The notes under the pieces were generated by a model. That model saw only the letters and a list, made by a program, of their open reading frames with translations. It was not told the DNA's origin and searched no databases. A program made the position numbers and the translations under genes. DNA of 64,000 nucleotides from Marivita sp. S6314 (GTDB lineage Bacteria > Pseudomonadota > Alphaproteobacteria > Rhodobacterales > Rhodobacteraceae). The stretch is from assembly GCF_023015985.1 (NCBI RefSeq), contig NZ_JALKAO010000002.1, positions 372,001 through 436,000 of the forward strand. The letters are read 5' to 3'. The first letter of the stretch is position 1, and every line of letters begins with the position of its first letter. Shown piece after piece: positions 44,559 to 62,191 of this stretch.

Positions 44559-44601
44559 CGTTTCCGTTGACGGAAACGACCCGATGCGTCATCGCATCGG
44601 G
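44559..44601. terminator. two tandem hairpins between convergent genes
   Basis: CGTTTCCGT and ACGGAAACG pair around two bases (44559-44578). Directly after, CCCGATGCG and CGCATCGGG pair around TCAT (44580-44601). Both stems are perfect over nine bp. They lie between the ends of the SnoaL-B and glcD-like genes and probably stop transcription from both sides, though no T-run follows. Confidence 0.6.
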
Positions 44602-44612
44602 CCACCGCCCAA

Positions 44613-45998: not shown

Positions 45999-46058
45999 GT
46001 CGATCCTCCCGGTTGTTGCACAGGGTTTAGACCGAAGTTTCGCACCGCGAAACCCATG

Positions 46059-46724
46059 TCATGGCTCCAGCGGTTCAATCAGGTCCGGTCCCGCCGCGCG
46101 GTTCGAATTGACCTTTGGATTCACACGGTAAAAGGCCATTGCATCTTCGTCTGCCGCCGTCATCAGCGTCGCTGCGCCATGTCCGGCCTCCCCCAGCCAA
46201 AGCGCCCACTGGTCTTCATTTAATGTCACGGGCTGGCGGTGATGGATCGCTGACATCTTAGGATTGGCTTGCGTCGTCACGATGGCGCAGGTCCGGTGGG
46301 TCACGCCATCGCGCTCCCAATCCTGCCAAACCCCGGCGAACGCCAACAAAGAACCGCGCGTTGGATGGATATACCACGGCAAGCGCTTGCCTTCGGGATC
46401 CTTTGTCCATTCGTAAAATCCCGTTGCCGGGATCAGACACCGCCGCGCGCGGCACGCCGCTTTGAAGGCAGGCTTTTCGGCAATCGTCTCGGCCCGCGCA
46501 TTGATCAAAAGCGGCCCGCCGTTTTCGGCCTTGTACCAATGCGGCAGGAACCCCCAGCGCATCGCCACCAAGCGGCGTTGCCCGTCGATCACATGCACCG
46601 CATGCACCTGATTGGTCGGGCAGATGTTGTAATTGGGGATGTCCGGCAAAGCGTTTGACGGCGCGGCGGCGAACAGCTGCGCCATGGCGTCATGCGGCAA
46701 TGTCAGGGCAAAACGTCCACACAT
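46059..46724 (-). CDS. yedK: SOS response-associated peptidase YedK (HMCES family)
   Basis: 221 residues. It protects abasic sites in single-stranded DNA by a thiazolidine link through its second residue. All four key residues are where E. coli YedK has them, within one position: C2 (MCGRFA), N75 (LLINARAET), E105 (GFYEWTK) and H161 (IHHRQPV). The initiator Met must be removed to free C2. It is a single gene on the minus strand, with a hairpin between it and ushA. Confidence 0.95.
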   Translation of the reverse strand: MCGRFALTLPHDAMAQLFAAAPSNALPDIPNYNICPTNQVHAVHVIDGQRRLVAMRWGFLPHWYKAENGGPLLINARAETIAEKPAFKAACRARRCLIPATGFYEWTKDPEGKRLPWYIHPTRGSLLAFAGVWQDWERDGVTHRTCAIVTTQANPKMSAIHHRQPVTLNEDQWALWLGEAGHGAATLMTAADEDAMAFYRVNPKVNSNRAAGPDLIEPLEP

Positions 46725-46733
46725 AGACAGTAT

Positions 46734-46761
46734 GCAGGTCGGACCAAAAGGCCCGACCTGC
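46734..46761. terminator. hairpin between ushA-type gene and yedK
   Basis: GCAGGTCGG (46734-46742) and CCGACCTGC (46753-46761) pair exactly, and the inner CC/GG can extend the stem around AAAA. It lies just past the end of the nucleotidase gene. No T-run follows, so terminator activity is uncertain. Confidence 0.5.
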
Positions 46762-46768
46762 CGGTTGT

Positions 46769-48328
46769 TTACTTCTTCAACGTGATCCGGCCATCGGTAT
46801 ATGGCTGGTAGGGCGCATTCTCGGCCAGGTATTCGGCCGTGACATCCGCCAGGTCCGGGCCAAAGTCATAGGCGTTCATCGCGTCGCGGAACATCTTGTA
46901 GCCGTCGCCACCATTGCGCACGTAGTTGTTCGAGACCGCGCCATAGACCCGGTCCATTTCGACAGCTGCGCCACCGATCATGACATCCGAAATCCGGCTT
47001 CCCGGCTCTTGCGTCAGATCAGCGGTAAAGGTCATGCCCGCAACCTGCGGGAAACGCCCGGCACCATCCTCGACCTGGCTGACCCCGTTTTCCAACGCTT
47101 CGACAAGCTGCGCCCCGGTCACCTGAAAGGTCGACAAGGTGTTCTGGAACGGCAAAACGGTCAGGACTTCGCCCATGGTCACATCACCGGCGTCAATCGA
47201 GGCGCGCAAACCACCGCTATTGGCAATCGCCACCTCGACCCCTTGATCAGCGACACGCGCCAGCATGGCATCAGCCACAAGATTGCCCATCGCGCATTCC
47301 ATCGCGCGACAGACCGACCGGTCCCCCTCGATCGCTTCTGCGGCGGAGGCGACAACGCGATTGCGGATCTCCTCAAGCGGGGCAGCCGCTTCGGTGATCC
47401 GCGCCTTGACACCCGCATCCTCGGCCACCGCCGCATCCATGATGATCGGTGCGCCTACCGCTTCGGTCAGGTTGCCCTCATCGTCAAATGTGACGTTCAA
47501 TTCACCAAGGAACTTGCCATAGGCATAGGCCTGCACGATCGCCGTGTTGCCCACCATCGTCGGGTACGGACCCACCGCGCGCTCCATGTCGCCCAGCAAC
47601 GTGTTCGAATGCCCGCCGACAATGACGTCTACACCGGTCGTGTTCTCGGCAACCCGGATATCCGTGTTGTAGCCAGAGTGGCTCAGCACCACGATCTTGT
47701 TCACGCCTTCCGCGGTCAGGCGGTCCACCTCGCCCTGCACCGCCTCAACAGGATCGGTAAAGATCACGTTCGGACCAGGCGACGCCAATTCATCGGTGTC
47801 CTGAGGCGTCAGGCCAATCAGACCGATCTTCTCACCCCCCTGTTCGATCACGACCGATTTCTGGATCGCGTCACTCAGCAGCGGCTCGCCGGAAATATCG
47901 GCGTTCGACATCAGAACCGGAAACTCGACGGAATCGACAAACCCGCGCAGAACTTCGGGGCCATCGTCGAATTCGTGGTTGCCCACGGTCATCGCCGTAT
48001 AGCCCATCTGGTTCATCATCTCGGCAGCCAGCTTGCCCTTGTAGTAGGTGTAAAACAGCGTGCCCTGGAACTGGTCGCCCCCATCCACGAGGATGTGGTT
48101 GTTGGTCCGCGCCTTGGCATCGCTGATCGCCGTCATCAAACGCGCAGAGCCGCCAAAGCACTCGCCTGCGGTGTTGTCTTCGGCGGAACAGCCGGAATCA
48201 TACTTGCTGATCGGCTCGAACCGCGCGTGGAAATCGTTGGTGTGCAGGATCGTGAGCGAATAATCAGCCTGCGCCACGCCCGCGCTCAACGCCAATGCAG
48301 CAGCACTTGTGAGTAGTTTATATGTCAT
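46769..48328 (-). CDS. bifunctional UDP-sugar hydrolase/5'-nucleotidase (UshA family)
   Basis: 519 residues with a signal peptide (1-21, GVAQA cut), so periplasmic. It releases phosphate and nucleosides from nucleotides for uptake. The metallophosphatase core shows LHTNDFHARFEP, VDGGDQFQGTL, VGNHEFDDGPE and LSHSGYNTD. The C-terminal substrate domain has IANSGGLRASIDAGDVT. The enzyme is of usual length. It has its own divergent promoter region shared with the DUF952 gene. Confidence 0.94.
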   Translation of the reverse strand: MTYKLLTSAAALALSAGVAQADYSLTILHTNDFHARFEPISKYDSGCSAEDNTAGECFGGSARLMTAISDAKARTNNHILVDGGDQFQGTLFYTYYKGKLAAEMMNQMGYTAMTVGNHEFDDGPEVLRGFVDSVEFPVLMSNADISGEPLLSDAIQKSVVIEQGGEKIGLIGLTPQDTDELASPGPNVIFTDPVEAVQGEVDRLTAEGVNKIVVLSHSGYNTDIRVAENTTGVDVIVGGHSNTLLGDMERAVGPYPTMVGNTAIVQAYAYGKFLGELNVTFDDEGNLTEAVGAPIIMDAAVAEDAGVKARITEAAAPLEEIRNRVVASAAEAIEGDRSVCRAMECAMGNLVADAMLARVADQGVEVAIANSGGLRASIDAGDVTMGEVLTVLPFQNTLSTFQVTGAQLVEALENGVSQVEDGAGRFPQVAGMTFTADLTQEPGSRISDVMIGGAAVEMDRVYGAVSNNYVRNGGDGYKMFRDAMNAYDFGPDLADVTAEYLAENAPYQPYTDGRITLKK

Positions 48329-48505
48329 GGAACCCTCTCTGTCGGTCGGTTTTTATGGGATGATCGTGGTCCCTCTGTTGCAGAGAGTCAAAGGCACAGT
48401 TGCGTCACCTGCACCACGCATCGCACAAAGGCGCTCTGCAAAGCCGGGTTGATGCAGCATGTTGGCGACTTGACCCCATCCCTTCAACGCGGCAACAGGA
48501 CAGGC

Positions 48506-48844
48506 ATGATCATATACAAACTCCTTCGTGCCGATGAATGGGCTGCGCTGCAAACCCAGGGCGAAACCACGGGCGCGCCGATTGATGTGGCTGACGGCTA
48601 TATCCATTTCTCCACCGCAGAGCAGGTGCGCGAAACCGCGACCAAGCACTTTGCAGGCGAAGAGGATCTGATGCTGCTGGCCTATGACGATGCGACGATC
48701 ACCGGTGACCTGCGCTGGGAGCCATCACGCGGCGGCGCGCTGTTTCCGCACCTCTACGCACCGCTGCGCTTCGCGGATATGATCTGGGCGAAACCGCTGC
48801 CGCTGGGCGCATCCGGCCACGTTTTCCCGGACGACATGGCATGA
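48506..48844 (+). CDS. DUF952 domain protein
   Basis: 112 residues matching the DUF952 family: [13 protein letters not shown] at the start, [20 protein letters not shown], and [11 protein letters not shown] near the end. The fold resembles ADP-ribosyltransferase-like proteins, and activity is unproven. It overlaps the start of pyrD by four bases (ATGA), a conserved pairing in this group, so it is translationally coupled to a pyrimidine gene. Confidence 0.9.
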
Positions 48845-49887
48845 GCGCGCTGGAACGCGCCGGGCTGGGCCTGCTGCACCGGCTTGATCCCGAAACGGCA
48901 CATGGCCTGGCCTTGCGGGCCTTGCAGCTTGGCCTGGCACCAACCGCTGGCACCGTGACCGGCGCGCGGCTGCGCACCGACATCGCGGGGCTGACGCTGG
49001 CCAATCCGGTGGGTTTGGCCGCCGGGTTCGACAAGAACGCCATCGCCCTGCGCCCCCTGTCGCGGGCGGGGTTCGGGTTTCTCGAAGTCGGTGCCGCCAC
49101 CCCCCGCCCCCAACCGGGCAACCCCAAACCGCGCCTGTTTCGCCTGACCGAAGACCGGGCCGTGATCAACCGGTTTGGCTTCAACAATGATGGCATGGAC
49201 AGCATTGCCGCCCGACTTCAGGACCGGCCACGCGACGCCGTAATCGGGTTGAACCTTGGCGCAAACAAAGACAGCGACAACCGCGCTGCCGATTTCGCAA
49301 CGGTTCTGACAACCTGCGGTCCGCATATCGACTTTGCCACCGTCAATGTTAGCTCTCCGAACACCGAAAAACTGCGCGACCTTCAGGGCAAAGAGGCCCT
49401 GTCGGCGCTGCTGGCCGGCGTGATGGACGCGCGCGCAGCGCTAGGAACACCCCTCCCGGTGTTCCTCAAGATCGCGCCCGACCTATCCGATGCTGAAATC
49501 GCAGATGTGGCCGATGTTGCAATCGCCTCGGGAATTGACGGTCTCATTGCCACCAACACGACGCTGGATCGGCATGGATTGACGTCCGCACACGCCCACG
49601 AAAAAGGCGGGTTGTCAGGCGTGCCCCTGTTCGAAAAATCTAACCGCGTTCTGGCCCTGCTTTACAGACAAACCGGCGGGCAGCTTCCCATCATCGGCGT
49701 TGGCGGGATCGCATCTGCCGAGGACGCCTATGCCAAGATCCGCGCCGGTGCATCTGCCGTGCAGCTATACTCGGCCCTGACCTATCACGGCCTGAGCCTC
49801 GTGCCAGAGATCGCGCGCGGCCTCGATACGCTGCTTGAACGGGACGGGTATGCGTCCGTCGCCGACGCGGTCGGCATTGACACCTGA
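48841..49887 (+). CDS. pyrD: dihydroorotate dehydrogenase (quinone), class 2
   Basis: 348 residues. It oxidises dihydroorotate to orotate in pyrimidine synthesis, giving electrons to ubiquinone. The N-terminal helix region for membrane contact is followed by [17 protein letters not shown], the [14 protein letters not shown] motif with the class 2 catalytic Ser, [12 protein letters not shown], and [20 protein letters not shown] for FMN phosphate. It is coupled to the DUF952 gene and ends before a terminator-like hairpin. Confidence 0.96.
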
Positions 49888-49923
49888 CGACATCTTCCTC
49901 TTGCCGGAAATACCTCGGGTGTC

Positions 49924-49946
49924 CGGGGGCAGCGCCCCCGCATTTT
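49924..49946 (+). terminator. terminator-like hairpin after pyrD
   Basis: CGGGGGC and GCCCCCG form a perfect seven-bp stem with an AGC loop, followed by CATTTT. It is 36 bases past the pyrD stop. A second palindrome, TTCCG and CGGAA, follows at 49945-49958. Confidence 0.65.
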
Positions 49947-49964
49947 CCGCCAACGGAATATGCC

Positions 49965-49982
49965 GGACGCGGTGACGCGTCC
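49965..49982. terminator. hairpin at the trpF end
   Basis: GGACGCG and CGCGTCC pair perfectly around GTGA just past the trpF stop codon. With the adjacent palindromes it separates two convergent genes. Confidence 0.5.
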
Positions 49983-49983
49983 G

Positions 49984-50640
49984 CTAGCGCAGGGATGGCA
50001 CCTGTAGTGCCTGTACGAAATCCCGGATCAGCTCGGCATCCTTGACCCCCGGCGCAGATTCCACGCCGGACGACACATCCACTTGCCGTGCGCCCGTCAA
50101 CGCGACCGCGTCGGCTACGTTGTCAGGCGTCAATCCACCCGCCAGCATCCACGGCACGGACCAACGCCGCGCTGAAATCAGCCGCCAGTCAAACGATACG
50201 CCATTGCCCCCCGGCAAAGTGGCATTCTTGGGCGGTTTGGCATCTACCAGAAGTTGGTCGGCCACATCCGCGTAAACGTCCAGCGCCGACACATCCTCTG
50301 CATCCGCGACGCCCACCGCTTTCATCACCGGCAGCCCGTAGCGCCCGCGCACCTGCGACACGCGTTCGGGGCTTTCGGAACCGTGCAATTGCAACATGTC
50401 CAAAGGCACCGCAGCGGTGATGGCATCCAAAAGCGCATCATCCGCGTTCACAACCAAGGCGACCTTGGCAATCCCGACCGGCACGTCAATCGCCAGATCC
50501 CGCGCGGTTTCAATCGACACATTGCGCGGGCTTTTGGGAAAGAACACGAACCCGCAATACGCGGCCCCGGCCTCGGCCACAGCAGAGACGTCTTCGGGCC
50601 GGGTCAGCCCGCAAATCTTGGTGCGTACTCCAGATGTCAT
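49984..50640 (-). CDS. trpF: phosphoribosylanthranilate isomerase
   Basis: 218 residues. Amadori isomerisation in tryptophan synthesis, a single TIM barrel. It begins with [19 protein letters not shown] (catalytic Cys), then [30 protein letters not shown] and [30 protein letters not shown] at the end holds the phosphate loop. It follows lapA by nine bases, in the ihfB-lapA-trpF order typical of this family. trpB is not present downstream. Confidence 0.96.
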
Positions 50641-50649
50641 CAGACCGGC

Positions 50650-51003
50650 TCAGCTGGCCTCGTCCAAAAGCGCAAGAACCTCGTCCTTGTCCTTGTCTCG
50701 CTCTGCTTTCGTGCGGCGCAGTTCCCGCTCAAGCTTCTTGACCTCAGCGCGCTTCTGCGCGGCCTCGGCCCGGTGCTTGTGCTCGCGCAGCCATTCCCAG
50801 ACAAAACCGATCAGCAAACCGGCAATGATGCCGCCAAAGATCACGATGAACATGGGAAGTTCAATCGACCGGTTCATCCCGACCATGTCCGACAGCCCCG
50901 AGGGCAACAGTTTGAGTGTCACCATACCCCGATTGGCCAGGGCCACCGACACCAATGCGATGGCCAGCACCGCAAGAAACGCATAGCGAATGTATCGCAT
51001 CAA
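50650..51003 (-). CDS. LapA-domain (DUF1049) membrane protein
   Basis: 117 residues. Two membrane helices (about 6-24 and 50-69) and a long charged coiled-coil tail (72-108, AQKRAEVKKLERELRRTKAE). It matches the lipopolysaccharide assembly protein A domain, whose E. coli member works with LapB in controlling LPS synthesis. A second ATG three bases in is possible. It lies between ihfB and trpF in the same direction. Confidence 0.88.
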   Translation of the reverse strand: MMRYIRYAFLAVLAIALVSVALANRGMVTLKLLPSGLSDMVGMNRSIELPMFIVIFGGIIAGLLIGFVWEWLREHKHRAEAAQKRAEVKKLERELRRTKAERDKDKDEVLALLDEAS

Positions 51004-51007
51004 TCTT

Positions 51008-51289
51008 TTACTTTCCGTTCAATCTGTCTCGAAGCAGCTTACCGGTCTTAAAGAACGGCACGTGTTTTTCTTCAACCTCAACCGCTTCACCTGTGCGTGG
51101 GTTGCGCCCCACGCGCGCATCCCGTTTCTTTACCGAAAACGCGCCGAAGCCGCGCAACTCCACCCGATCTCCGCGCGCCATCGCATTGATGATTTCTTCG
51201 AAGATTGTATTCACGATGCGCTCTACATCGCGTTGATACAAATGCGGATTGTCATCGGCAATCTTCTGGATCAATTCCGAGCGTATCAT
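51008..51289 (-). CDS. ihfB: integration host factor beta subunit
   Basis: 93 residues. IHF bends DNA as a heterodimer with Ihf[45 protein letters not shown] and the arm with the [12 protein letters not shown] motif (the Pro at the tip intercalates in DNA) are all present. It is the first gene of the ihfB-lapA-trpF group. The 275-base gap upstream (51290-51564) holds no gene I can support and should contain its promoter. The rpsA gene often found before it is absent. Confidence 0.96.
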
Positions 51290-51564
51290 AGTCTCGCATC
51301 CCCTTGGTCGAACACGACGGTCTGATGTGTTCTGCGATCAAGTATACGCAGGACCGATGCACACGGAAACCGTCGCGTGAGCGTGATTGGCAGAAAGTTC
51401 AGGCAAATGAAGCAGTTCTCGGCGAATTCGCGCCAGCATTTCCGGCGCTTGGCTGCGTTAAGCCGCGTGCACGGCATGTCAGTTGCTGTCCGATTCGGCC
51501 TGCCGACGGGCATCTGCGCCTTAGCCTGAGTTCCAGGGTTGCACCTGCTCGCATCCGGTGTCCG

Positions 51565-52296
51565 CTAGCGCGTCAGCAGGTATTCGTTGCTGTCTGTGTC
51601 AAATCCTGTCACGCGATAGCCATCTGCAAAGCCGGTGCCAAGCTCATCGCGCACCCGCAATCGTTCGGAAATTGCGCAGGCCAGATCGTTGCTCAGCATG
51701 GCTTCGAAATCATCCGGAATCCGCACGCGCAAAACCTGACCGCCGTCCATGGCAGGCGCGCGCGGCGTCGCCCCTTCAGCGCGCGCAACGACGCCGGGCG
51801 CGGTCAGGTGCCAGTCTGCCATCAGCCTGTCGGACGGAACACCCGCGTTGATGCCCTCCATCTGACCGTAGTAATCTTCCAGATAAGTGCTGCACTCCGC
51901 CCCTAGGCGCGCAATGTTCAGGCCCGCATTGATGCGGCGCAGCGGGTCATAGGTCCACCGCACGCGGGTGATCCCGCGCGCAAGACACCAATCGCGCTGA
52001 AACCACTTGAGCTTGATGCCAAGGCCCATGCCGCGACTATCGGGATGGACGGCCAGACGATGCGAGTGCTGCGCCGCTGGATCGCTTGTCGGAAATCCGA
52101 AAATGAACCCCAGCATCCGGTCGCCGACAAAGGCCCCGGCCACAAGTCCGCCTTCGTGCTGGATGGCCAGCAGGATATCGGAATTGTCGGGCGGATCATC
52201 CTCGCCCCAGACCTGCCGCTGGAAGGCTTCGGCATATTTCAATTCGCTGACACCCGCCAGTTCACGCAGGACCGGAGGTTCTTGCGGATCCCTCAT
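51565..52296 (-). CDS. GNAT acyltransferase of the COG3375 type (candidate amino-acid N-succinyltransferase)
   Basis: 243 residues. Acyl-CoA site: SHRLAVHPDSRGMGLGIKLK with the R-G-x-G-L-G loop (about 91-103). The following WCLARGITRVRWTYDPLRRIN is characteristic of COG3375, a family found beside menC/N-succinylamino-acid racemase genes. In Geobacillus such a GNAT protein succinylates D-amino acids. It overlaps the racemase-family gene by four bases (ATGA) and is the last gene of the amino-acid transport operon. The role here is inferred from context. Confidence 0.85.
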   Translation of the reverse strand: MRDPQEPPVLRELAGVSELKYAEAFQRQVWGEDDPPDNSDILLAIQHEGGLVAGAFVGDRMLGFIFGFPTSDPAAQHSHRLAVHPDSRGMGLGIKLKWFQRDWCLARGITRVRWTYDPLRRINAGLNIARLGAECSTYLEDYYGQMEGINAGVPSDRLMADWHLTAPGVVARAEGATPRAPAMDGGQVLRVRIPDDFEAMLSNDLACAISERLRVRDELGTGFADGYRVTGFDTDSNEYLLTR

Positions 52297-53429
52297 GCGC
52301 GCACCTCTTCGGTCTGGAGCGTCACGGTTTCAAGGTAATCACGGTCAAGGGTGACCCCGATCCCCGGCCCATGCGTCGGGACCCGCATCTCACCGTTTGT
52401 CGCCTCCAGCGGTTCGTTGACGATATCGCGCTGAAAATACCGGCTGGAGCTGGAGGTATCCCCCGGCTTGGTGAAATTCGCGAGCGTCGCCAGATGGATA
52501 TTATGGGCACGTCCAATCCCCGATTCCAGCATCCCGCCGCACCAGACCGGCGCGCCAAAGGCCGCGCTGATATCATGGATCGACCGCGCCGCCGCAAAGC
52601 CACCGACGCGGCCAACCTTGATGTTGATCACACGGGTCGCGCGGGCCTCCAATGCCTTGCGCGCATCCACAGGCGTCCGAATGCTTTCATCAAGACAGAC
52701 GGCTGTTTTCAAAGCGGCCTGCACTTGTGCGTGATCGTGAATGTCATCAAAGGCCAGCGGTTGTTCGATGTAATCCAGCCCGAACGCATCCAGATCGCGC
52801 AGCGTTGGCAGGTCAACAAGACCATAATCCGTGTTGGCGTCCACGGTCAGCTTGATGTCGGGAAACGTCTCGCGCACGGCGCGCACAAGCGCCACATCAT
52901 GCCCTTGCGCGATCTTCAGCTTGGTGCGTTTGTAGCCCTGCTCCACCGCCTCTGCGACACGCTCCAGCGTTTTCTCGATGGGGGCGATGCCAAGGCTGAC
53001 GCCCACATCCACGGCATCGCGCACTCCTCCGAAGGCGGATTTGAGAGGGATGTTCAGGCTTTTCGCCCAAAGATCCCAGAACGCCATTTCGACCACGGCC
53101 TTGGCCATGCGATTGCCGCGCCAAGGATCAAGAATCGCGGCCAGTTCGTACGGCGACGCAAATCGTTTGCCCACGATCTGAGGCAACAGCACATCGCGCA
53201 AGAACGCGATCGCCCCCGGCACGGTTTCTTCCAGGTAATCCGGTGCCGGATCCATGACGCCTTCGGCAATCCCTTCCAGACCGTCGCCTTTCAACACCAG
53301 CAACGGAAAGGTCTTTCCCGTCATCGTGCCGGTCGAAATGACAAAGGGCGTCAGCAACGGAAGGCTGACGATGCGAAGCTCTGCGGCGTCGATCAGGATG
53401 CCGGATCGGGGGTCGGAAGGGGGCGTCAT
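52293..53429 (-). CDS. N-succinylamino-acid racemase/o-succinylbenzoate synthase family enzyme
   Basis: 378 residues from the chosen start. Enolase superfamily, OSBS/NSAR branch: the KxK base pair TKLKI (K170, K172), metal ligands D197 (VDANTDY), E222 (YIEQPL) and D247 (CLDESI), the opposing base K271 (INIKVGRVGG) and CGGMLESGIGRAHN near the end. The spacing fits known NSARs. The context has no menaquinone gene, so racemisation of N-succinyl-amino acids is favoured over OSBS. An upstream start at 53447 is possible. It lies 24 bases after the transporter ATPase gene. Confidence 0.9.
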   Translation of the reverse strand: MTPPSDPRSGILIDAAELRIVSLPLLTPFVISTGTMTGKTFPLLVLKGDGLEGIAEGVMDPAPDYLEETVPGAIAFLRDVLLPQIVGKRFASPYELAAILDPWRGNRMAKAVVEMAFWDLWAKSLNIPLKSAFGGVRDAVDVGVSLGIAPIEKTLERVAEAVEQGYKRTKLKIAQGHDVALVRAVRETFPDIKLTVDANTDYGLVDLPTLRDLDAFGLDYIEQPLAFDDIHDHAQVQAALKTAVCLDESIRTPVDARKALEARATRVINIKVGRVGGFAAARSIHDISAAFGAPVWCGGMLESGIGRAHNIHLATLANFTKPGDTSSSSRYFQRDIVNEPLEATNGEMRVPTHGPGIGVTLDRDYLETVTLQTEEVRA

Positions 53430-53453
53430 GGGCGGTCTTTCATACACGGGACA

Positions 53454-54212
53454 TCATTTCACCGTGGCAATAAACTTTTTGAATACATCCGTCTGGGGCG
53501 AGTTGAACATCTGATCTGGCGGCCCTTGCTCGGCGATGCGGCCTTCATGCAGGAACACAACCTCTGACGACACTTCGCGGGCAAACCCCATTTCATGTGT
53601 GACCACGATCATTGTCCGCCCTTCGGCCGCCAAATCCTGCATCACCTTCAGCACATCACCCACAAGTTCGGGATCCAGCGCCGATGTCGGCTCATCAAAC
53701 AGGATCACGTCGGGATCCATCGCCAAAGCGCGCGCAATCGCGACGCGCTGTTGCTGGCCTCCGGACAATTGCGACGGATACATCTCCATTCGATCCTGCA
53801 ACCCGACGCGCCGCAGCAACGCGTCCGCCTTGTCGCGCGCTTCGGCCTTGCTCACACCTTTGACCTGAACCGGCCCTTCCATCACGTTTTCCAGTACCGT
53901 GCGATGGGTCCACAGGTTGAACTGCTGAAACACCATCCCAAGCCGGGCGCGGATCTTTTCGATCTGGCGCGGGTTCTGCGGCTTGCCATCGCGCACCAAC
54001 ACCTCTTCCCCCTGTATGGTGACGGTGCCCGATGTCGGGGTTTCCAGAAAGTTCAGGCAGCGCAAAAAGGTCGATTTGCCCGACCCGGACGATCCAAGGA
54101 TCGAAATCACATCATGGTTGCGCGCATCCAGCGAAATGCCTTTGAGCACCTCTACCGTGCCAAAGGATTTGCAGATGTTCTCGGCCTTGAGAATGATATC
54201 CGACTGGGTCAT
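53454..54212 (-). CDS. polar amino-acid ABC transporter ATP-binding protein
   Basis: 252 residues. HisP/GlnQ-type ATPase: Walker A GSSGSGKSTFLRC, signature QLSGGQQQRVAIARAL, Walker B VILFDEPTSALDPELVG and H-loop VTHEMGFARE. The EEVLVRDGKPQNPRQIEKIR insert resembles histidine/lysine-arginine-ornithine systems. It overlaps the permease gene upstream by four bases. It drives the import feeding the racemase and acyltransferase encoded next. Confidence 0.95.
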   Translation of the reverse strand: MTQSDIILKAENICKSFGTVEVLKGISLDARNHDVISILGSSGSGKSTFLRCLNFLETPTSGTVTIQGEEVLVRDGKPQNPRQIEKIRARLGMVFQQFNLWTHRTVLENVMEGPVQVKGVSKAEARDKADALLRRVGLQDRMEMYPSQLSGGQQQRVAIARALAMDPDVILFDEPTSALDPELVGDVLKVMQDLAAEGRTMIVVTHEMGFAREVSSEVVFLHEGRIAEQGPPDQMFNSPQTDVFKKFIATVK

Positions 54213-54943
54213 GCCCGTGGCTCCTTGGCTGGCTGCATCGCGGTTCGGGGGCGCGGGCGCGGTTCGATATGCGGGCTAAGCCGAAGTTCCGCCTGCCGCC
54301 AGAGGATGACGAACATCGCCGTGATACACAGGTAGATGATCGCCGCCCACAGGTAGATCGAAAAATCGAACGTGCGGGAAAACACCTGTCGGGTGCGACC
54401 CATGATGTCAAAGACAGTAACAACACTGGCCAAGGCGCTGGCCTTCATCAACAGGATGATTTCATTGCCCAACGCGGGCCAGGCGATCCTGTAGGCATGG
54501 GGAAACACAACCCGTCTCAGGGTCTTGATCCGCGACATGCCAATGGCGCGCGCCGCTTCGACCTCCCCCTGTGCCACGCCCATGATACCACCGCGTAGGA
54601 TCTCGGTCTGGTAAGCGGTTGAATTCAACGCAAACGCCAGCAGCGCGCAGTTGAACGGATCCCGAAAGAACGTCCAAAGACCCCATTCCTGCAGGATGGG
54701 GCGAAACTGGCCTGACCCATAGTAGATCAGAAACAGCTGCGCGAGGATCGGCGTGCCGCGCATGAACGAAATGTAAAGCCGCAGCGGCGCCTGCGCAAAG
54801 CTGTTCGAATAGGCCCGCACCAGCGCCAGACCCGGTGACACCAGCGCGGCAATAAACGCCCCCAGAAAGGTCAGCTTGATCGTCATGATCGTGCCGTCCA
54901 AAAGGCGCGGCCAGTATTCGGTGATAACCTCGATCGGGTTCAT
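54209..54943 (-). CDS. polar amino-acid ABC transporter permease (HisM-like)
   Basis: 244 residues with about five membrane helices and the EAA loop at EVEAARAIGMSRIKTLRRVV. The segment SFMRGTPILAQLFLIYYG is the standard HisM motif. The ATG at 54943 overlaps the stop of the other permease (ATGA); a further 31 codons upstream are out of family and rejected. It pairs with the HisQ-like subunit. Confidence 0.94.
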   Translation of the reverse strand: MNPIEVITEYWPRLLDGTIMTIKLTFLGAFIAALVSPGLALVRAYSNSFAQAPLRLYISFMRGTPILAQLFLIYYGSGQFRPILQEWGLWTFFRDPFNCALLAFALNSTAYQTEILRGGIMGVAQGEVEAARAIGMSRIKTLRRVVFPHAYRIAWPALGNEIILLMKASALASVVTVFDIMGRTRQVFSRTFDFSIYLWAAIIYLCITAMFVILWRQAELRLSPHIEPRPRPRTAMQPAKEPRA

Positions 54944-55653
54944 CAGGCCGCCCTCCGCACGCCGCGGTTGGCCCGACGCTCCATCCGGGCCAGCACCACC
55001 TCGGACAGCACACACATCGCCCAGTACAAAAGGCACGCCACCAGATAAAACGTAAACGGTTGCTTGGTGACCCCCACCGCAACCTTGGTCATGCGCATCA
55101 GGTCATCCAGCGCGATCACCGAAACAAGCGCCGTGTCCTTAAGCATGTTGATCCACAAATTGCCAAGCCCCGGCAGCGCAAACCGCCACACCTGTGGCAG
55201 TTGGATGCGCCGGAAAATCTGCGATTTTGACATCCCGATCGCGCGACCAGCCTCGACCTGCCCGTTGTCCAGCGATTGGAACGCCCCGCGCAGCACCTCT
55301 CCCGCATAGGCCCCGAACACCAGACCAAGCGCGATAACACCGGCTGCAAACGGGCTGAAATCCGTGCCGGAGGCCTCTGGATTCCACCACTTCACCGCCA
55401 TGTTCAACAACAGCCCTGCCCCGTTATACACAACAAACAAGGTCAGGATTTCGGGCAGGCCCCGCATCACGGTCGTATAGCCAAACCCCAGCGCCCGCAG
55501 CGGCCAGAGTCGCGATAGCGACGCGAAGGCGGCCATGAACCCAAGCACAAGCCCCACAGGAAGCGTCGCGATCGCAAGCTGGATCGTGATCGCGAGCCCC
55601 TGAAGGATTTCATCCCCCCAGCCCGCATCTCCGTATGCGAAAAGGTCAAGCAT
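54943..55653 (-). CDS. polar amino-acid ABC transporter permease (HisQ-like)
   Basis: 236 residues. Five or six membrane helices and the EAA loop at QVEAGRAIGMSKSQIFRRIQ. VMRGLPEILTLFVVYNGAG is the conserved early motif of HisQ proteins. It starts about 30 bases after the binding-protein gene and overlaps the next permease start by one base. Confidence 0.94.
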   Translation of the reverse strand: MLDLFAYGDAGWGDEILQGLAITIQLAIATLPVGLVLGFMAAFASLSRLWPLRALGFGYTTVMRGLPEILTLFVVYNGAGLLLNMAVKWWNPEASGTDFSPFAAGVIALGLVFGAYAGEVLRGAFQSLDNGQVEAGRAIGMSKSQIFRRIQLPQVWRFALPGLGNLWINMLKDTALVSVIALDDLMRMTKVAVGVTKQPFTFYLVACLLYWAMCVLSEVVLARMERRANRGVRRAA

Positions 55654-55686
55654 CGGCTTGCAGTCTGGCTGGAGGCATGACCGTCA

Positions 55687-56469
55687 TCATTTCATCGTGT
55701 AGACGTCAACGTCGAAATACTTGTCGTTGATGGTCTTGTAGGTCCCATCGGCGCGGATTTCCTTGAGAGCCGCGTTCAGACGCTCGCGCAGGTCATCATC
55801 TTCCTGACGCAACGCGATGCCGACACCTTCGCCCACAAAGGCCGGATCGGTGATCGGCTCACCCGACAGTTCACAGCACGCGCCATCGTCGGATTTCTTG
55901 GTCCAGTCCAGCATCGGAAGGAAGTCGCCAACCTGCATGTCGATCCGGCCGCTGGCCATATCAAGGTTCACTTCGTCCTGCGTCGGATACAGACGGATAT
56001 CCGCATCCGGGTACATCGCTTCGATGAAATCCGCCTGCGTGGTGCCCGCCTGCGCCCCGATCACCTTGTCGGCCAGCGCGTCATTCGAAAACTCGGTGAT
56101 GTCCGATCCTTTGGGCACCACATGGGTCATCGCGGCAAGGTAATAGGGTTCCGAGAAATCCACCTGCTTCTTGCGTTCTTCGGTGATGAACATCGACGCG
56201 ATGATAAAGTCGTACTTGTTGGCCAGCAGACCGGGGATGATTCCGTCCCAATCCTGCGCCACAACTTCGCATTCCGCGCCGATGCGCGCGCAAAGCTCAA
56301 GGCCGATCTCCACGTCGAACCCGGTGATGGTGCCATCAGATTCGATGAAGTTGAACGGAGGGTACGCGCCTTCCGTGCCCAGACGCAGGCTTTCAGCCGA
56401 TGCGCCGATGGCAAAGGATCCGACGACAAGCGCCGTCGCCGTTGCGGTTACTGTGTTCCGAAGTGTCAT
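55687..56469 (-). CDS. amino-acid-binding periplasmic protein (HisJ/ArgT type)
   Basis: 260 residues. Signal peptide 1-25 (GASAE cut) and the cluster 3 binding fold. GTEGAYPPFNFIESDGTITGFDVEIG is typical, as are the CARIGAEC cysteine pair, shared with ArgT/HisJ, and the ALKEIRADGTYKTINDKYFD end. These favour basic amino acids (Lys, Arg, Orn, His), though a D-amino acid would be consistent with the downstream enzymes. An additional CC pair occurs in DDGACCELSG. It is the first gene of the operon; its promoter lies in the gap upstream. Confidence 0.94.
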   Translation of the reverse strand: MTLRNTVTATATALVVGSFAIGASAESLRLGTEGAYPPFNFIESDGTITGFDVEIGLELCARIGAECEVVAQDWDGIIPGLLANKYDFIIASMFITEERKKQVDFSEPYYLAAMTHVVPKGSDITEFSNDALADKVIGAQAGTTQADFIEAMYPDADIRLYPTQDEVNLDMASGRIDMQVGDFLPMLDWTKKSDDGACCELSGEPITDPAFVGEGVGIALRQEDDDLRERLNAALKEIRADGTYKTINDKYFDVDVYTMK

Positions 56470-56843
56470 GTTTTGCTCCCAATTGGTAAAAGTCGATGGT
56501 CAGGTTGCGGTCACCGTCAGCGGATCGCCAACGTGGCCTGTGAAACGCCCATACAACTCCGCGATAGGTCTAGCCCGAGATCAACCTCGGGGCCAAGCGT
56601 CTTGAACACGGAATGAATGAGCCGATGAGAAAGATATGTCATCAGGGCTGTGCAATTCCTGATCGGATTGGTGATCAGGATCACGGCCCCCCTCGCATGC
56701 GCCTCCTGCCGCAACATCATAGCCCCGCGGAAATACCGGTGCGCTTCAGGAATGACAATGCACCTGCCCCGATCCGACGCACGCGCATCTGCACGTTGCC
56801 CGCCCTGCGATCCTCTTTCATACCGATTGTCAGGTGTCGTGGA
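56470..56843. other. 374-base intergenic region with no supported gene
   Basis: It separates the amino-acid binding-protein gene from the end of nrdJ, both on the minus strand. A 67-codon open frame lies inside on the minus strand (56517-56720) but has no recognisable features or ribosome site. The part near 56470 must contain the operon promoter, though no strong consensus is visible. No clear terminator hairpin for nrdJ was found. Confidence 0.6.
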
Positions 56844-59135
56844 TCAGCCGCACTTGCTGTGCCCGCAGGAGGCGCAGGTCATACAGCCTTCCTGCATGTG
56901 CATGTCATACTGGCCACAAGACGGACAGGCCGGGCCACGCGGTGTATCAAGATTGATCACCTGCGCCTTGGGGTCGGATTTGAGCCCCATCCCCTCGCCC
57001 TCAAGGAACCCGATGGCAATCAGGTGCTGCTCGATCACCCCACCAATGGCCGCCAGGATCGACGGGATATATTTCCCGTTCACCCAAGCGCCGCCGCGCG
57101 GATCAAACACCGCCTTGAGTTCTTCAACCACGAACGACACGTCCCCACCGCGCCGGAACACCGCCGAAATCATCCGCGTCAGAGCCACGGTCCAGGCAAA
57201 ATGCTCCATGTTCTTGGAGTTGATGAACACCTCGAACGGACGCCGGTGCCCGCCAACGATGATGTCGTTGATGGTCAGGTAAATCGCATGCTCACTGTCG
57301 GGCCATTTCAGCTTGTAGGTCTGCCCTTCCAGCGCCTGAGGCCGGTCGAGCGGTTCGGACATGTAGATCACATCGCCATGCGGCTGCTGCGGTTCTTCTT
57401 CAGAAGTGGTAACAACCTCGGGCGCTTCCTCCTTCTTCTCCTCCGCCACGCTCAAAACCGACCCTGTCACATCGTTCGGTCGGTAGGTCGTGCAGCCCTT
57501 ACAACCCGTCTCGAAGGCCTCCATGTAGACGTCCTTGAACGCCTCAAAGGAAATGTCCTCCGGGCAGTTGATCGTCTTTGATATCGACGAATCCACCCAT
57601 TTCTGCGCCGCCGCCTGCATCTTCACATGCTCCAGCGGGGCCAGTGTCTGGGCGTTGACGAAATAGTCGGGCAACTCCCGGTCGCCGAATTTCTCGCGCC
57701 ACATCTGAACCGCGTAATCGACCACCTCTTCCTCGGTCCGCGTCCCGTCCTTCTGCAACACCTTGCGGGTGTAGGCATAGGCAAACACAGGCTCGATCCC
57801 CGACGAAACGTTGCCCGCGTACAAGGAAATCGTCCCGGTCGGCGCAATCGAGGTGAGCAACGCGTTGCGAATGCCGTGCTCCCGAATGGCAGCGCGCACA
57901 TCATCATCCATCGCTTGCATCGCGCCACTGGCCAAGAACGCGTCCGCGTCAAACAGCGGAAAGGCGCCTTTCTCCTTTGCCAGATCGACCGACGCCAGAT
58001 ACGCGGCGCGGGCGATGCTGTGCAACCAGCGCTCGGTCTGTCGCGCCGCCTCGTCCGACCCATAGCGCAAGCCCAGCATGAGCAAAGCATCCGCCAGCCC
58101 GGTCACGCCCAAACCGATCCGACGCTTGGCCTGCGCCTCTGCGCGCTGCGCCTCCAACGGAAAGTTCGATGCATCGACCACGTTGTCCATCATCCGCACG
58201 GCGGTGGCGACCAGTTCCCGCAGCGCGTCTTCATCCAGCGCTGCCGCGTCTTCGAACGGGTCAGACACCAACCGCGCAAGGTTGATCGACCCCAGCAAAC
58301 ACGCGCCATAGGGCGGCAGGGGTTGTTCACCACACGGGTTGGTCGCGGCAATCGTTTCGCAGTAGTTCAGATTGTTGGACTGGTTGATCCGGTCGATAAA
58401 GATCACCCCAGGCTCGGCGTAATCATACGTCGCCTTCATGATCCGGTTCCACAGATCCCGCGCCTGCACGGTGCGGTAGACCTTGTCGTCAAACACAAGA
58501 TCCCACGACCCATCCGCCTTGACCGCGTCCATGAAATCATCCGTCACCAGCACCGACAGGTTGAACATCCGCAATCGCGCGGCGTCCGATTTGGCCCCGA
58601 TGAAATCCTCGATATCCGGATGATCGCAACGCATCGTCGCCATCATCGCGCCCCGACGCGACCCGGCAGACATGATCGTGCGACACATCGCGTCCCACAC
58701 ATCCATGAACGACAACGGACCAGAGGCATCCGCCGCCACCCCTTTCACATCCGCGCCCTTGGGGCGGATGGTGCTGAAATCATACCCGATCCCGCCGCCC
58801 TGCTGCATGGTCAGCGCGGCCTCTTTCAGCATCTCGAAAATGCCGCCCATGCTGTCCGGGATCGTGCCCATGACGAAGCAATTGAACAGTGTCACAGACC
58901 GCGCCGTGCCTGCCCCGGCGGTGATCCGGCCCGCGGGCAGGTATTTGAAATCGTCCAGCGCCGTGTAGAACCGGTCTTCCCACACCTGCGGCTCCGCCTC
59001 GACCGACGCCAGCGCCCGCGCGATCCTCCGCCAGGTGTCCTCGACCGTGCCATCAACGACGGTCCCGTTCGCCTCTTTCAGACGGTATTTCATATCCCAG
59101 ATCTGTTCAGCGATCGGCGCGGTGAAACGGGTCAT
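56844..59135 (-). CDS. nrdJ: coenzyme-B12-dependent ribonucleotide reductase, class II
   Basis: 763 residues. It converts ribonucleotides to deoxyribonucleotides using adenosylcobalamin, without oxygen and without a separate radical subunit. The active-site pattern is visible: VTLFNCFVMG (first Cys), ATNPCGEQPLPPYGACLLGS (radical Cys and Asn), APTGTISLYAGNVSSGIEP. The cysteine-rich C-terminal tail (CPSCGQYDMHMQEGCMTC) reduces the active site. The ATG at 59135 with AAAGGAG is chosen; the open frame runs 92 codons further upstream. A DnaA box lies 114 bases upstream. Confidence 0.96.
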   Translation of the reverse strand: MTRFTAPIAEQIWDMKYRLKEANGTVVDGTVEDTWRRIARALASVEAEPQVWEDRFYTALDDFKYLPAGRITAGAGTARSVTLFNCFVMGTIPDSMGGIFEMLKEAALTMQQGGGIGYDFSTIRPKGADVKGVAADASGPLSFMDVWDAMCRTIMSAGSRRGAMMATMRCDHPDIEDFIGAKSDAARLRMFNLSVLVTDDFMDAVKADGSWDLVFDDKVYRTVQARDLWNRIMKATYDYAEPGVIFIDRINQSNNLNYCETIAATNPCGEQPLPPYGACLLGSINLARLVSDPFEDAAALDEDALRELVATAVRMMDNVVDASNFPLEAQRAEAQAKRRIGLGVTGLADALLMLGLRYGSDEAARQTERWLHSIARAAYLASVDLAKEKGAFPLFDADAFLASGAMQAMDDDVRAAIREHGIRNALLTSIAPTGTISLYAGNVSSGIEPVFAYAYTRKVLQKDGTRTEEEVVDYAVQMWREKFGDRELPDYFVNAQTLAPLEHVKMQAAAQKWVDSSISKTINCPEDISFEAFKDVYMEAFETGCKGCTTYRPNDVTGSVLSVAEEKKEEAPEVVTTSEEEPQQPHGDVIYMSEPLDRPQALEGQTYKLKWPDSEHAIYLTINDIIVGGHRRPFEVFINSKNMEHFAWTVALTRMISAVFRRGGDVSFVVEELKAVFDPRGGAWVNGKYIPSILAAIGGVIEQHLIAIGFLEGEGMGLKSDPKAQVINLDTPRGPACPSCGQYDMHMQEGCMTCASCGHSKCG

Positions 59136-59248
59136 GACAGCGACTCCTTTGGCGGGGCAGACAGCAAGAATAGCGTGAACTGGAAAAACAACAATTAGGT
59201 TTTGCGGGCATCCACCGTACCACATTCGGTGCCATCTGGGGAAGACTC

Positions 59249-59257
59249 TGTGGATAA
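59249..59257 (-). promoter_or_regulatory. DnaA box upstream of nrdJ
   Basis: TTATCCACA on the minus strand, an exact consensus DnaA box, in the nrdJ/DUF1489 divergent gap. DnaA controls nrdAB in E. coli, so direct control of nucleotide-precursor supply is possible. A single nine-base match can also be chance. Confidence 0.5.
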
Positions 59258-59339
59258 CCCGCGGAATAAGGCCCATGTGCCGACGATGCCTTGAACCCCG
59301 TCGCGTCACAGCTAAGCTTTGCACAAAAGGGGGCATCCC

Positions 59340-59771
59340 ATGGCAGGCACAATCCATCTCATCAAGCTTTCGGTTGGGTCGGAAAGCGTGGAACAGATCG
59401 AAGACTGGCAAAAGAACCGCTCAAAGCAGCGGTTGAACGGCCAGTACTATCACCTGACCCGCATGTGGCCCAAACGGGAAAAAGAGCTGATCAACGGCGG
59501 CTCGATCTACTGGGTGGTCAAAGGCTTTCTGCAGGCCCGTCAACGCATCATCGGACTTGAGGAAATGATCGGAGACGATGGTATCCGGCGCTGTGCGATC
59601 CTGCTCGACCCCGCGCTGATCCGCACCGCCACCGCGCCCAAACGCCCGTTCCAGGGCTGGCGCTACCTCAAACCCGAAGACGCCCCGCCCGATCTTGGGC
59701 AGGCCCGCGAAAACGACGACACACTGCCGCCCGAACTGGCCGGGGCGCTGGCCGAAATCGGCGTGCTGTGA
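59340..59771 (+). CDS. DUF1489 family protein
   Basis: 143 residues. The alphaproteobacterial DUF1489 family is recognised by IHLIKLSVGSESVEQIEDWQ, YHLTRMWPKREKELINGGSI and the RPFQGWRYLKPEDAPPDL end. It is usually found as a single conserved gene near nrd or replication genes; its function is unknown. The ATG at 59340 is preceded by AAAAGGGGG. Confidence 0.9.
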   Translation: MAGTIHLIKLSVGSESVEQIEDWQKNRSKQRLNGQYYHLTRMWPKREKELINGGSIYWVVKGFLQARQRIIGLEEMIGDDGIRRCAILLDPALIRTATAPKRPFQGWRYLKPEDAPPDLGQARENDDTLPPELAGALAEIGVL

Positions 59772-59874
59772 TCCCGGCTTAACCGGTCCGCACAGCCGAT
59801 CTGCATCCCCGCACTGGTAGTTTGGCACGCAGTCCCTAGGTTAGGTCCAAGCAATCACCGATCAGGATCACCAA

Positions 59875-60741
59875 ATGACCGACAGCTACACGCCGCCCAA
59901 AATCTGGACATGGGATCAGGAAAACGGCGGCAAGTTCGCCAGCACCAACCGTCCCATCGCCGGACCCACCCATGACAAAGAGCTTCCGGTCGGCAAACAC
60001 CCGTTCCAGCTTTATAGCCTTGCCACACCGAACGGTGTGAAGGTCAACATCATGTTCGAAGAACTGCTGGCCGCCGGGCACACAGGTGCAGAATATGACG
60101 CGTGGCTGATCAATATCGGGGATGGCGATCAATTCGGATCAGGGTTTGTCGACATCAATCCGAACTCCAAGATCCCTGCCCTGATGGACCGTTCAGGCCC
60201 AAAACCGGTCCGCGTGTTCGAATCCGCTGCGATCCTGATGCATCTGGCTGAAAAGTTCGACGCCTTCCTTGGCCCCAAGGAAAACCGCCCCGAAATGCTC
60301 AGCTGGCTGTTCTGGCAAATGGGCAGCGCGCCGTATCTGGGTGGCGGGTTCGGCCATTTCTACGCCTATGCGCCCGAGCCGATGGAATACCCGATCAACC
60401 GCTTCGCGATGGAAACCAAGCGCCAGCTGGACGTGCTCGACCGGCAATTGGCCAACACCACCTATATCAGCGGAGACGACTACACGATCGCCGATATGGC
60501 CATCTGGCCGTGGTATGGCGGGCTGGTCCTGGGTCGCCTCTATGACGCTGCGGAATTCCTGGATGTGGAGAGCTACACCCATGTGATGCGCTGGGCGAAA
60601 CTGATCGACGCCCGCGACCCGGTGCGCCGGGGTCGGATGGTGAACAGAGCGTTTGGGGATCCAAGCGAGCAATTGCGCGAACGCCATGATGCCTCCGATT
60701 TCGACACCAGGACGCAGGACAAGATCGACGCTGCCAGCTAA
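59875..60741 (+). CDS. yghU: glutathione-dependent disulfide-bond oxidoreductase (YghU-type GST)
   Basis: 288 residues. A Nu-class glutathione transferase. Long N-terminal arm (PPKIWTWDQENGGKFASTNR), the thioredoxin-like GKHPFQLYSLATPNGVKVNIM domain, then NSKIPALMDRSGPKPVRVFESAAI for glutathione, and a helical C-terminal half. In E. coli YghU binds two glutathiones and reduces disulfides and peroxides. A single gene with its own start region. Confidence 0.93.
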   Translation: MTDSYTPPKIWTWDQENGGKFASTNRPIAGPTHDKELPVGKHPFQLYSLATPNGVKVNIMFEELLAAGHTGAEYDAWLINIGDGDQFGSGFVDINPNSKIPALMDRSGPKPVRVFESAAILMHLAEKFDAFLGPKENRPEMLSWLFWQMGSAPYLGGGFGHFYAYAPEPMEYPINRFAMETKRQLDVLDRQLANTTYISGDDYTIADMAIWPWYGGLVLGRLYDAAEFLDVESYTHVMRWAKLIDARDPVRRGRMVNRAFGDPSEQLRERHDASDFDTRTQDKIDAAS

Positions 60742-60849
60742 ACACCGCATCCCGCGCGACCCTTTTACCGCGCGGGAGGCCCACCTGCCCTACCGGATTA
60801 TGACACCGGGACGGTTGCTCTGCCCGCACAACGCCTTACCTCAGCGGTC

Positions 60850-62169
60850 ATGAGCGACATGCCCGACCCCAAGGCCAAAGCCGTCCCAACCGGACGCACC
60901 GCCCGCGCGGTGCGCATGGGAGGTCTGGCCAGCGGCCTTCTCGGATCCGCCGCGATGACCGGAGCCAAACATCTGCTGCGCGGTCAGCGCCCGTCGCCAC
61001 GCGATTTGTTGCTGACCCCGTCCAACGCCCAGCGCCTGACCCATCAGCTGTCCCAGATGCGCGGTGCGGCGATGAAGATGGGCCAATTGTTGTCGCTCGA
61101 AGCGGGTGATCTGCTCACACCCGAATTGGCCGCCGTTCTACGCCCCCTGCAATCCCAGGCGCATGTCATGCCACCGTCGCAACTGAAAACGGTGCTCACC
61201 GCCGCGTGGGGCCGCAATTTCATGAAGCAATTCAAGCGCTTCGATGTGCGCCCCATCGCAGCCGCGTCGATCGGGCAAGTGCATCGCGCGCAAACCCGCG
61301 ATGGCCGAGACCTCGCGATCAAGGTTCAATACCCGGGCATCCGCGACAGCATCGACAGCGACCTGCGCAATCTTGCAAGCCTGATGAAACTGTCCGGCAT
61401 GATGCCAAAAGACATGGATCTTGCGCTGTTCCTCGAAGACGCGCGTCAGCAATTGCACGACGAAGCCGATTACGCGCAGGAAGCCCGCAACCTGCAACGG
61501 TTTGGCGTTTTACTCAGGGACGATCCGGATTTCATCGTGCCGGACTGGCATGCCGATCTCAGCACCAAAGACATCCTTGCGATGGAGTTTGTCCCGTCCG
61601 AACCGCTCGACACGCTGGAAGATGCTCCGCAGGATCGCCGCGATCACGTCGCCGATGCGCTGATCCGTCTGTTCATGCGCGAAGTCTTCGCGTTCCAACT
61701 GGTGCAAACCGATCCGAATTTCGCCAATTTCCGCTGGCAGCCCGGCAGCGGCAAGATTGTCCTGCTCGATTTCGGCGCCACGCGCGCCATTCCGGCACCC
61801 TTGGTGGCCCGGTCACGGGCGATCGTGTCCCCCGCGCTCGACAACGATCTGGACGGAATCGCACAGGCGCTGACCGATCTTGGCCTCTTGTCCGACGCCC
61901 TCCCCAAAGAGGTCCGGCGCGAGATCATGGATATGGTCGCCCTCGCCAACGGCCCGATGCTACAGGCCTCTGGTTTCGATTTCGGCAACACCGATCTTGT
62001 CGCATCCCTGCGCGACCGGGGCATGGCTTTGGGGCGCAATCGCGCGATCCAGCATATTCCCCCGACCGAGGTTCTGTTCCTGCAACGCAAAGCGGCCGGT
62101 CTGTTTCTTCTGGCGACACGCCTGCGCGCGCGGGTCAACCTGCGCCAGCTGTTCGAACACGCCGCCTGA
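60850..62169 (+). CDS. ABC1/UbiB-family kinase-like protein
   Basis: 439 residues of the atypical kinase family that includes UbiB and COQ8/ADCK. The family hallmarks are present: the KxGQ motif MKMGQLLS (K76-Q79), IAAASIGQVHRA (Ala-rich nucleotide loop), the AIKVQYPG lysine, DEADYAQEARN, the catalytic QTDPNFANFRW and LLDFGATR for metal. There is no clear C-terminal membrane helix, which makes it more like ADCK/COQ8 than UbiB. A role in coenzyme Q synthesis or lipid handling fits; a COQ9 gene is in the window. Confidence 0.92.
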   Translation: MSDMPDPKAKAVPTGRTARAVRMGGLASGLLGSAAMTGAKHLLRGQRPSPRDLLLTPSNAQRLTHQLSQMRGAAMKMGQLLSLEAGDLLTPELAAVLRPLQSQAHVMPPSQLKTVLTAAWGRNFMKQFKRFDVRPIAAASIGQVHRAQTRDGRDLAIKVQYPGIRDSIDSDLRNLASLMKLSGMMPKDMDLALFLEDARQQLHDEADYAQEARNLQRFGVLLRDDPDFIVPDWHADLSTKDILAMEFVPSEPLDTLEDAPQDRRDHVADALIRLFMREVFAFQLVQTDPNFANFRWQPGSGKIVLLDFGATRAIPAPLVARSRAIVSPALDNDLDGIAQALTDLGLLSDALPKEVRREIMDMVALANGPMLQASGFDFGNTDLVASLRDRGMALGRNRAIQHIPPTEVLFLQRKAAGLFLLATRLRARVNLRQLFEHAA

Positions 62170-62191
62170 ACCGCTTCTGCGCGCGCCGGGC

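Follow-up and report, generated by a model that had tools for sequence, protein, structure and literature searches.

We studied six genes in a stretch of 64,000 nucleotides from Marivita sp. S6314 (Rhodobacteraceae; contig NZ_JALKAO010000002.1, positions 372,001 to 436,000), which we call the window. The genes lie together at 51565-56469, all directed along the minus strand, and encode from upstream to downstream a substrate-binding protein (SBP), permease Q, permease M, an ATPase, a predicted N-succinylamino acid racemase (NSAR) and a GNAT acyltransferase (Table 1). An earlier note on the window had proposed them as a candidate system for the uptake and inversion of D-amino acids. All six open reading frames (ORFs) were found at the coordinates it gave, with the short gaps and overlaps described there, and, the COG3375 label of the acyltransferase apart, Pfam and NCBIfam agree with the gene families it named. 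SBP and permease Q are separated by 33 nt and ATPase and NSAR by 6 nt, while overlaps of 4 nt are found at the junctions of permease M with ATPase and of NSAR with GNAT. The permease M ORF as listed spans 54209-55036 with a GTG start; the likelier start is the ATG at 54943, directly at the end of permease Q. The operon arrangement is more than chance, as the same order recurs in other genera.

Table 1. Features of the operon and its surroundings in the window
Feature	Coordinates	Strand	Assignment
SBP	55687..56469	-	periplasmic binding protein, SBP_bac_3, HisJ/ArgT/ArtJ-like; PF00497 2.5e-43
Permease Q	54943..55653	-	inner-membrane, HisQ/ArtQ-like; PF00528; ArtQ model 5e-62, under its cut-off
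Permease M	54209..54943	-	inner-membrane, ArtM/HisM-like; PF00528; ArtM model 5.5e-55, under its cut-off
ATPase	53454..54212	-	ABC ATPase, HisP-like; PF00005; HisP model 3.3e-104, under its cut-off
NSAR	52293..53447	-	predicted N-succinylamino acid racemase, NSAR/OSBS family, enolase superfamily; MR_MLE_N + MR_MLE_C
GNAT	51565..52296	-	probable succinyl-CoA:D-amino acid N-succinyltransferase; PF00583 (Acetyltransf_1)
Intergenic region upstream of the operon	56470..56843	.	374 bp; probable promoter region
Operon-bearing stretch between the ihfB and nrdJ flanks	51419..56843	.	5,425 bp

Racemase, acyltransferase and importer

The best solved relatives of the racemase are 2ggg and 1r0m, entries for N-acylamino acid racemases (E about 1e-132), whose source organism we take to be Deinococcus radiodurans. 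The NSAR gene of D. radiodurans is its closest characterised relative, with 57.5% identity. In a review table the D. radiodurans enzyme has a kcat/Km of 371,429 M-1 s-1 on N-succinyl-S-phenylglycine and ranks highest among the NSAR/OSBS rows considered here (PMC8142540). The catalytic set, called full in the earlier note, is present in the alignment with the MLE-subgroup lysines and metal ligands K176/K178, D203, E228, D253 and K277. In addition, R280 is the arginine at the R266 position; going by the title of Truong et al. 2021, the second-shell R266 is reportedly linked to NSAR specificity. The catalytic positions and this arginine are invariant in all 125 aligned loci (103 distinct sequences), an alignment that holds no OSBS-only control.

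The annotations of relatives in RefSeq and PLSDB suggest another role, that of an o-succinylbenzoate synthase (menC). The menC label is carried by 34 of the 38 listed plasmid relatives, Rhodobacterales among them, and the o-succinylbenzoate synthase model TIGR01928 scores the window protein at 318 bits, above its cut-off. Against this, the genome is 99.99% complete and its best match to menD, the only men gene sought, reaches 68.9 bits compared with a cut-off of 244.2. For this gene, the earlier observation that no menaquinone gene is near can be widened from the neighbourhood to the genome as a whole. The operon partners are not menaquinone genes either, and the arginine at the R266 position is kept in the window protein as in all the aligned loci. 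Since menD is not found above its cut-off, the menC label is very likely wrong here and the OSBS role was rejected as extremely improbable; the arginine likewise favours the NSAR role for which the earlier note had argued. The label is probably a systematic mislabel of NSAR relatives in organisms without menaquinone synthesis, menD having been checked in the genome of the window only.

For the acyltransferase, a hidden Markov model (HMM) was built from 32 GNATs of NSAR-holding loci outside Alphaproteobacteria. The GNAT of the operon matches this model at E=8e-61 and no other ORF of the window does so at E up to 1, which bears out the NSAR-linked type named earlier. When 26 chosen members are aligned, 18 columns are invariant. 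By its sequence the protein thus belongs with the NSAR-linked GNATs of other phyla, and its Geobacillus counterpart is reported to be a succinyl-CoA:D-amino acid N-succinyltransferase. We scanned the loci of 80 relatives within 8 kb of NSAR and found a GNAT match in 54 of them, on the same strand and within 1.5 kb in 51.

Both permeases (BPD_transp_1) pass the HEQRo permease-domain model and the ATPase is an ABC_tran protein; together with the SBP_bac_3 protein they make up the complete subunit set of a polar amino acid ABC importer of the HisJ/ArgT class. None of the subunits reaches the cut-off of any subunit-specific NCBIfam model shown; for the ATPase these are the 25 best of 188. The best solved relatives of the SBP are 2m8c, AncQR, 3tql and HisJ. 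The earlier note had suggested a basic ligand, and this is weakly supported: the lysine/arginine/ornithine model TIGR01096 is indeed the best one, but its 229.3 bits stay under the cut-off of 256.35.

The SBP keeps the equivalents of HisJ S70, R77, T121 and D161. Since we take these residues to contact the head group of the ligand, we expect a free amino acid and not one that is blocked at its nitrogen. Compared with HisJ, D11 is replaced conservatively by E and S72 non-conservatively by F; the other two changes are L52 to W and L117 to Q. These pocket residues are common to the aligned loci in which NSAR stands with this type of importer, called importer-type below (L101 without the first columns). 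The binding proteins next to NSAR in Brucellaceae and in D. radiodurans have other residues at the equivalents of T121 and D161 and probably bind something else. Two importers of the same kind without NSAR have neighbours that may give a clue to the ligand. One (L164, 9500-15900) adjoins an agmatinase-family enzyme, a EutB-like dehydratase and a DHDPS-family protein, the other (L163, 9100-19500) lies about 2 kb from an ornithine cyclodeaminase, which is followed by an M20 gene, and these neighbours lend weak support to an Orn/Arg-like ligand.

Conserved gene order, gene company and probable horizontal gain

Baits were mapped on 50 loci, of which two are without NSAR and at least two pairs are the same contig. 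The full six-gene order is present in five further loci, namely in Defluviimonas salinarum (L021), Rhodobacter viridis (L024), the genome G252 (L148) and plasmids of Sulfitobacter mediterraneus and S. indolifex (L100, L102). The matches in these loci are near full-length and without internal stops, except for one stop in permease M of R. viridis, where an open frame of 245 residues is found at 8505-9242. NSAR and GNAT were also seen among the matches listed for a second S. mediterraneus plasmid (H2). An RpiR-family match precedes the operon in each of the five loci. In the window itself no RpiR-family regulator gene was found at 43001-63000. The RpiR regulators of L100 and of L103, a locus with a peptide importer, match the SapR model far under its cut-off.

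The gene upstream of the operon in the window lies 374 bp off and the downstream gene (93 residues, HU/IHF-type) 275 bp off; from their translations we take them to be nrdJ and ihfB, respectively. No sigma-70 consensus match is present in the upstream intergenic region, and scans for promoters and terminators gave nothing over chance. A second enolase-superfamily gene is located elsewhere in the window at 32232-33464 on the plus strand and is the strongest match of the genome to PF13378 (1.4e-63).

The racemase is patchily distributed, with matches in 13 of 121 genomes at E up to 1e-60 and in 11 of 390 genomes of the order at 1e-90; the SBP is found in 4 of these 390 (the own genome is counted for the racemase and the SBP alike). 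A tree of 48 racemases, whose midpoint root serves the drawing only, places the window copy among six copies of the importer type from other genera (support 100/98); the ten copies from its own genus make up a clade of their own (100/100). The importer-type copy of R. viridis falls outside the importer group, so the importer type is not one clade and two to three changes are needed. The interval between ihfB and nrdJ, 5,425 bp in the window, measures 206 bp without any ORF longer than 33 residues in a genome of the same genus (G012). In two others (G006 and G005; loci L203 and L204) it is about 1 kb and holds an ORF of 282 residues, and the site is possibly an insertion hotspot. Of the 16 same-genus loci, the remaining 13 did not show nrdJ in the fetched flank of 1.5 kb. 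Because the racemase groups with other genera and apart from its own, and because of the synteny at ihfB-nrdJ, the operon was probably gained horizontally as a unit. Synteny alone would leave loss from the relatives possible; horizontal gain agrees with the presence of the operon on Sulfitobacter plasmids. Base composition, tried as a mark of foreign DNA, did not clearly set the insert (59.9%) apart from its flanks (60.6% and 61.8%).

Within the 8 kb around NSAR in the 80 relatives, RpiR matches were found in 28 loci, M20 genes (two types sought) in 25 and an SBP of the window type in four. The M20 cluster c2 is present in 20 loci and the RpiR cluster c4 in 18, often in the row RpiR, M20, GNAT, NSAR. 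Further company includes an amino-acid permease after GNAT in Paracoccus (three loci, two from one genome) and a row of SBP_bac_3, M81, NSAR and GNAT in Brucellaceae (two loci). On three Deinococcus plasmids (L105, L233, L234) the genes after NSAR and GNAT code for peptide permeases, a binding protein and serine hydrolases, the beta-lactamase family being confirmed in two of the three, and these loci are likely clusters for the use of D-peptides or N-acyl-D-amino acids. On one of them, from D. psychrotolerans (L105), the end of the stretch cuts into a gene annotated as D-aminoacylase, and the 109 residues of it that are covered match amidohydrolase models only. On two Deinococcus plasmids NSAR and GNAT flank an SBP_bac_3 gene. 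Taken together, this company fits the uptake and use of D-amino acids or of peptides with D-residues, without proving it.

Some of these loci raise the question whether N-acylated amino acids or peptides are imported as such, with GNAT re-acylating them or using another amine. In ten alphaproteobacterial loci NSAR-GNAT is divergent from RpiR, a peptide importer and an M81 metallopeptidase. Four others (L072, L104, L107 and L156, three of them nearly identical) lack a GNAT match near their NSAR, which stands with a peptide importer, gamma-glutamyltransferase and M20; the substrate of their racemase may be an acyl-amino acid made in another way. The importer of the window is of the single-amino-acid class and keeps the residues for a free amino-acid head group, and we regard import of acylated amino acids or peptides as improbable here.

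Proposed pathway and the missing hydrolase

We propose the following pathway. The ABC importer would carry a free alpha-amino acid into the cell, where GNAT would move a succinyl group from succinyl-CoA onto the alpha-amino group of the D-enantiomer. The racemase would interconvert the N-succinyl-D- and N-succinyl-L-amino acid, and an L-specific hydrolase encoded elsewhere, possibly of the M20 type, would free the L-amino acid and thereby render the inversion irreversible. Succinylation would also trap the imported amino acid. The parts, their catalytic residues, the gene order, the tree and synteny that speak for horizontal gain and the results for menD, AstB and AstE are established by sequence; the activities, the preference for D-amino acids, the order of the steps, the ligand class (basic or Arg/Gln-like) and the hydrolase are inferred. 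A horizontally moved operon or cassette for scavenging D-amino acids is the best explanation and, in our view, a rather probable one. The interpretation of the earlier note is thus partly supported and still the best reading.

No hydrolase is encoded at the locus, as the earlier note had already recognised. Elsewhere in the genome there are 17 M20 matches, the best of which are about 26-31% identical to NSAR-linked M20s of Firmicutes. Two adjacent M20 genes, M20a and M20b, stand behind a peptide importer on another contig (C34:45001-65000), in a row at 3057-14028 of that stretch (L132) that comprises an M81 metallopeptidase, peptide-importer genes and the two hydrolases. M20a is 72% identical to NSAR-adjacent M20s of same-genus genomes (L038, L157, L160), and M20b is 64-68% identical to the M20s of the four gamma-glutamyltransferase-type NSAR loci. 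The M81 gene in this stretch, the only one of the genome, is just 28% identical to NSAR-linked M81. M20b is present in all three importer-type genomes of the sample (the own genome, G252 and G481, the last with a broken importer; p=0.012). This is only a hint, as the genomes were grouped with the data already in view and M20b itself came from one of these three genomes. M20a and M20b are therefore candidates only for a hydrolase acting in trans. A route that needs no desuccinylase, with N-succinyl-L-arginine fed straight into the arginine succinyltransferase pathway, was rejected as neither AstB nor AstE has a match in the genome. The lack of these matches and of menD above its cut-off makes the arginine-succinyl route and the OSBS role unlikely.

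Several observations weigh against the proposed pathway. The earlier note had looked to a distant M20-type hydrolase, and such genes exist, but over the 390 genomes they are not enriched with NSAR: M20a occurs in 3 of 11 NSAR-bearing genomes and 59 of 379 others (p=0.25), M20b in 4 of 11 and 86 of 379 (p=0.23), the own genome being counted in both cases (2 of 10 and 3 of 10 NSAR-bearing genomes without it). In the importer-type loci as fetched, baits for M20, M81, gamma-glutamyltransferase and serine hydrolases gave no match, and 26 of the 80 relatives have no GNAT match within 8 kb of NSAR. The cassette also decays in some carriers. In Sulfitobacter W027 (L101, 389-5284) the SBP match is split over two frames and the GNAT match contains stops, next to a whole NSAR. 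In Fluviibacterium (L020, 8539-9940; on one contig with L147) NSAR and GNAT are intact and the importer is broken: the SBP is without a match, permease Q is reduced to its C-terminal third, and permease M and ATPase are fragmented, so the enzymes there do not need the importer. The pocket of the SBP failed as a discriminator between D- and L-forms, since the tabulated positions are the same in the two importers without NSAR, except for F14 in L164 and A120 in L163. The NSAR kinetics in the parts of the review considered here were obtained with N-succinyl-phenylglycine, N-succinyl-phenylalanine and N-acetyl-methionine, not with basic amino acids (PMC8142540). Finally, deep-sea isolates that degrade D-amino acids, some of them Alphaproteobacteria, are described in the relevant parts of the report as having no significant racemase activity except for alanine (PMC4836201), although these isolates may lack the operon.

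The near-identical pockets and the Fluviibacterium locus also speak for an ordinary importer of polar amino acids, L-selective or non-stereoselective, with NSAR-GNAT clearing the small D-fraction that is imported or arises in the cell; the genes beside the L164 importer point the same way. The tight coupling and the shared history of importer and enzymes across genera, plasmids included, suggest a common substrate instead, and we consider the ordinary importer an unlikely, if serious, alternative. Scavenging of D-amino acids, our preferred explanation, has a stronger form in which the importer is dedicated to them. The SBP would prefer the D-enantiomer and prompt succinylation would trap the cargo, all in one mobile cassette for import and stereo-inversion, exchanged by Rhodobacterales on plasmids among other carriers and missed by surveys of D-amino-acid genes because its racemase is filed under menaquinone synthesis. 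This stronger form is tentative, and we would not expect it to hold in full.

Significance and comparison with known systems

D-amino acids make up an important share of the dissolved organic matter in the sea. In deep-sea isolates, according to the parts of the study considered here, the known D-amino-acid genes did not explain strain differences in growth on D-valine (PMC4836201). A survey of D-amino-acid genes from 2025 counts racemases, dehydrogenases and oxidases, and a word beginning with 'succinyl' appears a single time in its main text, for a methionine gene (PMC12363236). Such work would easily overlook a mobile importer-plus-inverter that is labelled menC, and the operon is a clean test case for whether bacteria have D-selective ABC importers of the HisJ/ArgT class.

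The enzyme pair itself is of a known kind. Sakai et al. 2006 reportedly described a pathway of GNAT, NSAR and M20 hydrolase in Geobacillus kaustophilus which converts D- to L-amino acids irreversibly. The operon shares with it a coupled NSAR and a GNAT of the family found beside NSAR in Firmicutes, no Geobacillus sequence having been compared directly. In contrast to that pathway, it has no M20 gene but a dedicated ABC importer, NSAR precedes GNAT, and no regulator adjoins. None of the open-licence papers found in literature searches ties an importer to NSAR in its title or the opening of its abstract. As far as this literature tells, two things are new: NSAR-GNAT is coupled to a complete amino-acid importer in a unit that has probably moved horizontally, and RpiR regulators and uptake genes are repeatedly found near NSAR in phyla far from one another.

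The importer resembles HisJQMP, ArgT and ArtJ systems in that all four subunit families are present, and differs in the four pocket substitutions of the SBP relative to HisJ and in subunit scores under the specific-model cut-offs shown. The pairing with an importer, which the earlier note did not know from described cases, is conserved in other genera, but Deinococcus also has SBP_bac_3 beside NSAR and GNAT, so binding proteins for polar amino acids are linked to the pair more widely than had been thought. In D. radiodurans (MP1) and Deinococcus sp. QL22 the genes for NSAR, SBP_bac_3 and GNAT also stand in a row, with an RpiR regulator in QL22. Unlike the operon, these clusters hold the binding protein only, the amino-acid permease of QL22 lies about 3 kb away on the opposite strand, and the binding-protein gene of D. 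radiodurans is annotated as two ORFs.

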